Part shown: one piece after another, positions 6,158 to 8,610 of the stretch
How the letters are laid out: every line of letters starts with the position of its first letter
How positions within the stretch are numbered: the stretch's first letter is position 1
Assembly (NCBI GenBank): GCA_029865385.1
Contig: JAOUGX010000033.1
Location: 1-32,487, forward strand
Reading direction: 5' to 3'
DNA: 32,487 nucleotides
Origin: Gammaproteobacteria bacterium
Lineage (GTDB): Bacteria; Pseudomonadota; Gammaproteobacteria; Steroidobacterales; Woeseiaceae
Notes under the pieces: model-generated
The model's input: only the letters and a program-made list of their open reading frames with translations
What the model was told of the DNA's origin: nothing
Database searches by the model: none
Made by a program: the position numbers and the translations under genes

Positions 6158-6883
6158 TCAACGGATCGCGTAGCTCACCTGCACCTGCACGTTTACGCTC
6201 ACCTGGCCTTCCGAAATGCCTGGCACTGGCGCGGCTTCTGCCATGTCGAAACGGCCTCCTCCCATGAACGGCACCGGGTAACCGCCGCCGGATGACATCG
6301 AGATAGTCTGCACGTCACCGAGCTCCACGCCCGCGAGTTTGGCCAGTGATTCGGCACGACCCTTTGCATCCGCCATCGCCAATGCCCGCGCTTTCTCCTC
6401 CAGCGCCGCCGTGTCCATCACGCCGAAGCTGACGCCATGAATAGAGTTGGCGCCGGCGTCGGTTACCGCTGCCAGCACTTCGCCCACTTTGTCGATGTCA
6501 TTGACAGTCACGTTAACCACATTCGAAACATGATAGCCGCTGATCTTCATCGCGCCGGTCCCGTTCGGGTTGTGCTGCTGCTCGGGCCAGATGCTGTAGT
6601 TCGCCGTCTGCACGTCTTTTCTGTCGATACCCTGCTTGTCGAGTGCCTGCATGATGCGCTCTACAATGGCCTGATTTTCGCGCGTGGAATCGGCAACCGT
6701 TGCCGCAATGGTCTGTATTCCTGCGCTGACCCTGGCCTGGTCCGGGCGGCCGGCGGCTTCGCCGAGGCCGGTAACCGAAATCGTGCGAACGCCTGCGGGG
6801 TCCTGCGCCGCGGCGAATCCGCAAAATGCCATTGCCAATAGGGCCAGCAACATGGGCTGCTTGAAAGTTCTCGATGATGTCAC
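6158..6883 (-). CDS. SIMPL domain (DUF541) periplasmic protein
   Basis: A 241-residue exported protein. I start it at the GTG at 6883 because AAGGAG lies 7 bases upstream and a signal peptide (MLLALLAMAFCGFAAAQ, ending near residue 27) follows directly; the frame stays open upstream to 6982 but without a ribosome site. The mature protein fits the SIMPL/DUF541 family: ISVTGLGEAAGRPDQARVSAGI at its start, the YxIWPEQQ and GYHVSNVVNVTV segments in the middle, and ALAMADAKGRAESLAKLAGV plus VSVNVQVQVSYAIR at the end. The family is envelope-located with no established reaction. It is last of three minus-strand exported-protein genes sharing a GACAAGGAG ribosome site, with a folded leader (6898-6948). 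Confidence 0.85.
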   Translation of the reverse strand: MTSSRTFKQPMLLALLAMAFCGFAAAQDPAGVRTISVTGLGEAAGRPDQARVSAGIQTIAATVADSTRENQAIVERIMQALDKQGIDRKDVQTANYSIWPEQQHNPNGTGAMKISGYHVSNVVNVTVNDIDKVGEVLAAVTDAGANSIHGVSFGVMDTAALEEKARALAMADAKGRAESLAKLAGVELGDVQTISMSSGGGYPVPFMGGGRFDMAEAAPVPGISEGQVSVNVQVQVSYAIR

Positions 6884-6897
6884 GCCGGTGCTCCTTG

Positions 6898-6948
6898 TCG
6901 CGGTCACTTCGGGTGGCCAATCCACCCGAAGATGCAATTCGACCGCGA
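6898..6948 (-). promoter_or_regulatory. Nested hairpin in the leader of the SIMPL gene
   Basis: An inner 9-bp perfect stem (TTCGGGTGG at 6908-6916 with CCACCCGAA at 6922-6930, 5-base loop) sits inside an outer 8-bp perfect stem (TCGCGGTC at 6898-6905 with GACCGCGA at 6941-6948). On the minus-strand transcript the outer stem ends one base before AAGGAG. There is no U-tract, so a simple terminator for the upstream gene is not favoured. An extra UCCUU (6960-6956) could pair with the AAGGA of the ribosome site. A regulatory role is inferred. Confidence 0.5.
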
Positions 6949-6998
6949 TCATTTGAAGGAATTCCCGAAAGTGCGCTTTCACGCTGGCTTTTGGTTAA

Positions 6999-7835
6999 TC
7001 AGAGCCTGCGGGCTTCCTCGACGATACCGACAGGCACGCTGGCAACCTCGCCGCTCAAAGCGATTAGCAGTGTTCCGGCAGAGATTTGGCCCTCAAGCAT
7101 CGCGAGCCCCTCGAAGTTCGAGCCGTTCCAGGCCGCATCCGGTCCGGTGCAGCCGTCGATCGAATAGCTGACACCGTACATATTCGCGAAACTGACGACC
7201 GTACTCACCTGGCCGTTGATGACGCAACCGGTCGAAGCGTTCTGCAAAAACATCGCTCCGTCGGATGCGATATTGAGTACATCGCCCGCCATCGTCTGGT
7301 ACTGGCCGGCTACGGTCGCCAGCGACGAGCTCCGGTTGTAGAGCGGGTCGAAAGTCAGCGTCAGTTGCTCGTCGAACTCGAGGCCTGCCCGGGTGGTGCA
7401 CTCCTTGCTTGCCGTAATGGATTGCTGCTCGACCAGCGTGCCCGAAAGGAAGCAGTCGGCGACGGTGCTGCCGTCCGGGAAGGTATCGCCGTACGCGGTA
7501 ACCAGCTCGAATCCGCTACCCAGTATGTTGTTGGTTCCGACCGATACCGTACCGGAGCCGATCCGGCCGATTCCGTCGACGTAGCGCAAAGTGTTGTGCC
7601 GGCTGATCAACGCGACGACGTCCGCGCCGCTGGCGTCCGTGCCACGCCAGATGCCGTCCGGTATGACGGCTGGCGTCAAATCCCAGTTGACCGTGCACTG
7701 CCCATTGATCCAGTTCTCGTTGTAGCGGCAGTCCGGACCGCCCGTGTCGCCGCCCCCGCCGCAGCCGGCCAGGCCGAGCACCAGCCCAAACAAGCCGATC
7801 CGTGTTGCGCCTACCCCAAATTCGATGATGTCCAT
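6999..7835 (-). CDS. Gly-rich-linker lipoprotein with beta-rich repeats
   Basis: A 278-residue protein with a clear lipobox (GLAGC, Cys25) followed by a GGGG linker. The mature part seems to hold two beta-rich lobes. The first begins near residue 62 with GIWRGTDASGADVVALIS and runs to about 165. The second starts near 175 with VAGQYQTMAGDVLNIASDG and contains GCVINGQVS and SIDGCTGPDAAWNGS, giving a Cys pair. This WxGT... and GCxxNG layout occurs in uncharacterised proteobacterial lipoproteins; I know no function. The ATG has AAGGAG at 7 bases, but that site is in the arm of a perfect 10-bp hairpin (7845-7874). It lies between the secreted 183-residue protein gene and the SIMPL gene on the same strand. 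Confidence 0.75.
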   Translation of the reverse strand: MDIIEFGVGATRIGLFGLVLGLAGCGGGGDTGGPDCRYNENWINGQCTVNWDLTPAVIPDGIWRGTDASGADVVALISRHNTLRYVDGIGRIGSGTVSVGTNNILGSGFELVTAYGDTFPDGSTVADCFLSGTLVEQQSITASKECTTRAGLEFDEQLTLTFDPLYNRSSSLATVAGQYQTMAGDVLNIASDGAMFLQNASTGCVINGQVSTVVSFANMYGVSYSIDGCTGPDAAWNGSNFEGLAMLEGQISAGTLLIALSGEVASVPVGIVEEARRL

Positions 7836-7844
7836 TGCCCCACT

Positions 7845-7874
7845 CCTTGTCAGCGATATTGCTTGCTGACAAGG
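7845..7874 (-). promoter_or_regulatory. Hairpin sequestering a ribosome-binding site
   Basis: CCTTGTCAGC (7845-7854) and GCTGACAAGG (7865-7874) are perfect 10-bp complements around a 10-base loop. In the minus-strand mRNA the 3' arm contains the AAGG of the AAGGAG that serves the ATG at 7835. When folded, most of the ribosome site is paired. The following bases (AGTGGGGCA) are no U-tract, so it is not a typical terminator. Control of translation, for example by temperature or a ligand, is inferred. Confidence 0.55.
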
Positions 7875-7892
7875 ATCCGGGTTTGGCAGGGC

Positions 7893-8444: not shown

Positions 8445-8448
8445 GACT

Positions 8449-8519
8449 TACTCCTTGTCTTTGACGTTCGAAGATAACGACAGCAGCTTCCATCGATTGG
8501 CGGCCACTGAACAGGAGTA
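8449..8519 (-). promoter_or_regulatory. Possible long-range masking of a ribosome site
   Basis: In the minus-strand leader of the 183-residue protein, UACUCCUGUUC (8519-8509) can pair with GACAAGGAGUA (8459-8449): seven continuous pairs, two mismatches, two more pairs. The paired region covers the AAGGAG that serves the ATG at 8444. The 49-base loop makes this weaker than the hairpin at 7845-7874, and anti-Shine-Dalgarno matches of this length can arise by chance. Confidence 0.3.
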
Positions 8520-8589
8520 TTTCCGGGCAAAACGCACAGAAGCACGGACGCGCTCAACGCGCGCCCGTACCGTCTTGTACTTATCCGAT

Positions 8590-8610
8590 GGCCGGCAACG
8601 AAAGCCGGCC
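8590..8610 (-). terminator. Hairpin downstream of the MAPEG gene
   Basis: A 7-bp GC-only stem (GGCCGGC at 8590-8596 with GCCGGCC at 8604-8610, 7-base loop) begins 8 bases after the stop of the MAPEG gene on the minus strand. No U-tract follows, so an intrinsic terminator is only a possibility; it may instead protect the 3' end. Confidence 0.3.

Follow-up and report, generated by a model that had tools for sequence, protein, structure and literature searches.

The locus considered here raises the question of what a hairpin does when it closes the Shine-Dalgarno (SD) box of a predicted lipoprotein gene: whether it regulates translation, holds it constantly low, or has some other origin, including chance. 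The analysis covered a window of 32,487 nucleotides, that is, the whole stretch of DNA presented, and the coordinates of the relevant features are collected in Table 1. On the minus strand, positions 7875 to 7844 read TCCTTGTCAGC-AAGCAATATC-GCTGACAAGGA and form 11 perfect pairs closing a loop of 10 nt. The preliminary description of this region had placed a perfect 10-bp hairpin at 7845-7874; its position and pairing hold, but the flanking pair T7875/A7844 lengthens the stem to 11 bp. The claim that the stem covers most of the AAGGAG box is also borne out, as the stem is predicted to pair five of the six SD bases. The box is separated from the ATG (7835-7833, minus strand) by the spacer TGGGGCA. 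In a 66-nt leader, the predicted mean unpaired probability of the SD bases is 0.13 at 37 C; the adjacent AUG is modelled as more open than the SD.

Table 1. Coordinates of the hairpin, the neighbouring genes and the related start regions.
Feature	Positions	Strand	Remark
Upstream gene P0002, 183 aa	7893..8444	-	kept in 32 of 107 family genomes
Stretch between the P0002 stop and the stem, 17 nt	7876..7892	-	possible ribosome standby (inferred)
Stem 5' arm TCCTTGTCAGC	7865..7875	-	contains anti-SD CCTT
Stem loop AAGCAATATC, 10 nt	7855..7864	-	
Stem 3' arm GCTGACAAGGA	7844..7854	-	includes AAGGA of the SD
SD AAGGAG, 7 nt ahead of the ATG	7843..7848	-	stem takes in five of its six bases
GACAAGGAG-N11-ACATCATCGA block	7822..7851	-	over the lipoprotein SD and start
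Predicted lipoprotein, 278 aa	6999..7835	-	22 of 107 family genomes have a relative (own counted)
SIMPL leader composite stem	6891..6961	-	CTTCGGGTGG/CCACCCGAAG, TCGCGGTC/GACCGCGA, TTCCTT vs AAGGAG
Other copy of the GACAAGGAG-N(6-14)-ACATCATCGA block	6871..6899	-	over the SIMPL SD and start

The stem is not followed by a U-tract and does not appear in the list produced by the terminator scan. Thus an intrinsic terminator was rejected, in line with the preliminary description, according to which the hairpin does not look like one. A genome-wide search for palindromes with perfect 9-bp arms and loops of 3-25 nt found the stem at one place and no second copy, and on these grounds a dispersed repeat of the REP/REPIN type was rejected as well. 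Both intrinsic terminators and REP/REPIN palindromes are short intergenic stem-loops like this one; the difference is that the lipoprotein stem lacks the U-tract and is present in a single copy. A looser pattern, CCTTGT-N3-33-ACAAGGAG, occurs at two other places in the genome, against one control match. One of these places is 3 nt before the ATG of a 99-aa open frame, and the other has no start codon 3-13 nt downstream.

Among the perfect stems of the window (loops of 3-20 nt) this is the longest, and 30 dinucleotide shuffles gave on average 0.17 stems of at least 11 bp per window. In simulation, 56 of 3,000,000 leaders carrying AAGGAG had a perfect stem of at least 11 bp over the given SD, or 1.9e-5 per leader. 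The corresponding expectation is 6e-4 for the window with its 31 called genes and approximately 0.07 for an assumed genome of 3600 genes. The stem is therefore unlikely to be noise within the window, although at this rate per genome chance alone will produce some such stems when many genomes are scanned. The gene calls behind a sample of 105 leaders from the same genome are crude; in this sample no other perfect stem covering an SD is as long, the next having 6 bp, and 97 leaders have no such stem of at least 4 bp. By measures of energy and accessibility the leader is unusual, not extreme. The folding energy of the region -50..+15 ranks fifth of 105, the accessibility of the SD ranks 9, 13 and 14 with 50, 80 and 120 nt of upstream sequence, and the z-scores against shuffles are -2.7 (95 nt) and -3.0 (80 nt).

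The assignment of the gene product as a lipoprotein, also made in the preliminary description, is a plausible prediction: a hydrophobic stretch precedes a lipobox-like LAGC, whose cysteine is invariant in eight aligned relatives. The 278-aa protein matches no model of Pfam or NCBIfam. It belongs to an unnamed but widespread family of predicted lipoproteins in which motifs such as SPGGIW and GCVINGQ are conserved; matches occur in 58 of 396 genomes of the order (own included). The best match in another genome has 45% identity, and no close orthologue was found among the 107 genomes of the family or the 396 of the order. A pattern scan of contigs with the protein gave 20 matches, none of them a relative, and a contig scan with an alignment of three sequences gave four loci, which lie outside the set that was folded; two of the four are on contigs equal in length to ones used before (L003, L004). 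The lipoprotein has an N-terminal extension of nine residues, found in none of seven aligned relatives.

Of 31 relative loci fetched, one being a paralogue from the same genome, seven lack a clear start and were left out (L010, L016, L017, L018, L020, L021, L022), so that 24 leaders were examined. An SD of at least 4 nt is present in 16 of them. None of the 24 leaders, all distant, contains a perfect stem longer than 7 bp in the region -80..+15 of the chosen start, and the longest perfect stem touching at least three SD bases has 6 bp. Sharing of the pairing by orthologous leaders, put forward earlier as a check, was thus not observed. However, at such distances the missing stem says only weakly anything about function, and since the leaders cannot be aligned with the stem, its conservation is unproven rather than disproved. 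Some relatives have the SD closed by unrelated folds (unpaired probability 0.00 in L006; 0.03 in L011, 0.02 in L024 and 0.00 in L132 with 80 nt) and some have it open (0.8 in L009 and, with 50 nt, in L011), where the 80-nt values of L011, L024 and L132 come from an automatic choice of starts in which 11 of 31 loci had no lipobox start, nine had no SD, and some starts are wrong.

The next gene on the 3' side of the lipoprotein gene encodes a SIMPL-family protein, and its SD is masked as well. Perfect stems of 10 bp and 8 bp are stacked here in one hairpin, at the base of which TTCCTT pairs with AAGGAG. This fold is stronger than the lipoprotein hairpin (z -4.2), and none of 200 shuffles was equally stable. 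The predicted unpaired probability of the SIMPL SD is 0.05, versus 0.31-0.68, that is, open, in the leaders of nine SIMPL relatives. One of the nine, from the same-genus genome G008, contains a very strong palindrome, and yet its SD is open (0.68).

The best explanation of the lipoprotein hairpin, which we put forward tentatively, is a damper that constitutively lowers translation from within an intercistronic gap and that ribosomes arriving from P0002 may relieve in part. The TGA codon of P0002 is in the same frame as the lipoprotein ATG, 57 nt before it and 17 nt before the stem. An mRNA running through from P0002, as the co-directional arrangement and the short gap suggest, would span 7875-7844 and is predicted to fold into the 11-bp stem holding five of the six SD bases. 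If the usual quantitative rules of hairpin strength apply, a barrier of -17.5 kcal/mol would make fresh binding of 30S subunits at the ATG rare. A hairpin this stable can hide the ribosome landing site, and by itself the lipoprotein gene would probably yield little product. Residual translation could be due to ribosomes that stay on the mRNA past the TGA of P0002 and move 57 nt to the ATG; alternatively, 30S subunits may wait on the 17-nt unpaired stretch. The damper would be a fixed setting with no sensing of temperature. Of this scheme, the sequence itself shows the complementarity with its rarity and its position; the fold and its stability are predictions.

Several observations favour the damper: the perfect stem over the SD, with its low predicted accessibility, its rarity and its first place in length among the 105 leaders; the conservation of P0002, a genuine gene on the same strand; and the closed SD of the downstream SIMPL gene, where those of the nine relatives are open. 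On the other hand, no leader of the 24 relatives has the stem (the longest perfect stem is 7 bp), and the same-genus genome G007 does not keep the gap. Moreover, closure of the SD is common: the rank of the lipoprotein SD is only 9 or 13 of 105, and some relatives are equally closed (L006 and three others at 0.03 or below).

A 2025 review (PMC12548453) describes several coupled downstream genes that are silenced by structure at the ribosome site when uncoupled, in agreement with the damper. Against it, the same review reports for genes VII and IX of phage f1 that coupling was abolished when the stop codon was moved well upstream of the hairpin (+89 nt), and here the stem is wholly past the stop codon of P0002. 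The two genes are co-directional and closely spaced, though 57 nt is long for coupling, and translation of P0002 does not reach the inhibitory structure, which starts 17 nt past the stop. Unfolding-type coupling fits poorly, because the stem lies entirely beyond the P0002 stop codon; coupling of the scanning type is possible. P0002 itself has no match in Pfam or NCBIfam, and its order with the lipoprotein gene is not kept: in G007, the MAPEG gene and P0002 occur in order and are followed by another gene.

SD-masking stems are of a known kind, and the lipoprotein hairpin is at most another member. Translationally coupled pairs such as f1 VII/IX (PMC12548453) share with this locus co-directional genes, a structured downstream ribosome site and an intrinsically strong SD. 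However, typical pairs overlap or nearly touch, whereas here the stem lies past the upstream stop and the start is at +57 nt. Structured standby sites, as described in PMC3936740, resemble it in that single-stranded RNA adjoins a hairpin close to the SD, but the hairpins studied there spare the site that binds 16S rRNA, whereas the lipoprotein hairpin overlaps the SD. A real damper would add another case to the genes whose strong SD is shut by a stable intercistronic stem, and would offer a natural test of ribosome start behind a structure of ~17 kcal/mol without stop-codon overlap.

The main and serious rival of the damper, possible though in our estimate unlikely, is a chance inverted repeat over the SD that is neutral or nearly so, as the gene may be weakly expressed or the mRNA may rarely hold both arms. 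The genome-wide expectation of ~0.07 stems is compatible with this, and so are the uniqueness of the stem in its own genome and its absence from the 24 leaders. The expectation for the window alone speaks against it, as does the adjoining SIMPL leader, which is also extreme. So do the gaps between the successive genes MAPEG, P0002, lipoprotein and SIMPL, the hairpins of which have energies of -27.2, -18.3 and -20.2 kcal/mol and rank 1, 6 and 4 of 51 co-directional gaps, a ranking made after the pattern had been noticed. The MAPEG-P0002 gap (8445-8594, minus strand) has the strongest hairpin of the 51 (z -3.1), which may be a terminator whose T stretch is weak.

The strong hairpins in all three gaps also favour a reading in which the stem protects or defines the 3' end of the P0002 mRNA, or is a cleavage site of the RNase III type, the overlap with the SD being incidental. 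This reading is doubtful: the U-tract is absent and the terminator scan made no call, the overlap with the SD is exact, and no gap hairpins were seen in G007 (z +0.73, +0.39).

The starts of the lipoprotein and SIMPL genes also share a sequence block. The pattern GACAAGGAG-N(6-14)-ACATCATCGA occurs in the 3.92 Mb genome at only two places, which are these two adjacent gene starts, with 0 control matches; by eye, it was not seen in the printed leaders of the nine SIMPL relatives. The nine-residue extension of the lipoprotein lies at the point at which the block runs into the coding sequence, and the reading frame there differs from that of SIMPL. These observations suggest the copying of an initiation region from one neighbour to the other. 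Against copying, the two occurrences differ in the middle part of the block, and CATCATCGA is over-represented in a 241 kb sample of the genome (9 found versus 1.2 expected).

The 9-mer GACAAGGAG occurs three times in the window (6891, 7843 and 8451, minus strand; 0.13 expected), and its three places are the SDs of three successive genes. The closure of these SDs ranks 10, 13 and 15 of 105 with 80 nt of upstream sequence and 13, 14 and 20 with 120 nt, while with 50 nt only that of the lipoprotein gene is closed (rank 9) and the other two are ordinary (52 and 85); like that of the gaps, this ranking was examined after the pattern was noticed. One could imagine a start module common to the neighbouring genes, in which the start block, taken from SIMPL or from a source common to both, was duplicated at the lipoprotein start, adding the nine residues, each copy then gained its own unrelated SD-closing arm on the upstream side, and the successive cistrons are opened only by upstream ribosomes. 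As a whole, this scheme is decidedly doubtful. A copied start block next to an equally masked neighbour could be used to ask whether masks arise independently after duplication of an initiation region.

It is improbable that the palindrome acts as DNA, that is, as an operator binding a protein at a promoter in the gap. The two 11-bp arms have centres 21 bp apart, which by simple arithmetic is two helical turns. However, the genome has no second copy with perfect 9-bp arms, half-site matches are at the control level (19 and 19 versus 16 and 20), and the only nearby site resembling a promoter overlaps the start of the coding sequence and occurs at the shuffle rate (one found, 0.9 expected).

An RNA thermometer or another RNA switch, as suggested in the preliminary description, is very improbable. 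The hairpin resembles ROSE-like thermometers, such as that of Pseudomonas ibpA (PMC3669281), in holding the SD just 5' of the start codon, here beside a more open AUG. The differences are that its pairing is long and perfect, whereas thermometers use mismatches and open between growth temperatures, and that there is no heat-shock gene at this hairpin. The isolated stem has a modelled energy of -17.5 kcal/mol at 37 C and, even at 60 C, of -10.6 kcal/mol, and the modelled mean unpaired probability of the SD is 0.06, 0.10, 0.14 and 0.19 at 4, 25, 42 and 80 C, respectively. With the stem this stable and the SD closed up to 80 C, a thermometer is not supported. Of the features of ROSE and fourU thermometers, only the paired SD is predicted here; opening in the growth range, imperfect pairing and a family match are lacking. 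According to PMC3669281, perfecting the SD pairing in the ibpA thermometer abolished expression at both low and high temperature. The Rfam search of the window yielded no family at the gathering score, and of the three sub-threshold matches at the hairpin, two are to microRNA models, one of which is the best of the three (E 0.41), and the third is an end fragment. Thus, of the earlier interpretation, the predicted masking of the SD and the exclusion of a terminator stand, and the thermometer does not.

Finally, a stop-codon readthrough signal, the stem promoting a fusion of P0002 with the lipoprotein, is hardly credible: the TGA is in frame and the gap, divisible by three, is open for 19 codons with no stop between, but the same frame without a stop is expected quite often (an estimate of ~0.15), the fusion would bury the signal sequence and lipobox of the lipoprotein, the stem begins 17 nt from the TGA, and the gene pair is not conserved.

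Elsewhere in the same genome, perfect palindromes of 22-29 bp were found at L042 2980-3043, L047 2764-2839, L056 151-205 and L061 8462-8529. The SIMPL leader of G008 (L103) contains a palindrome of similar length. These look like candidate dispersed palindromic repeats.
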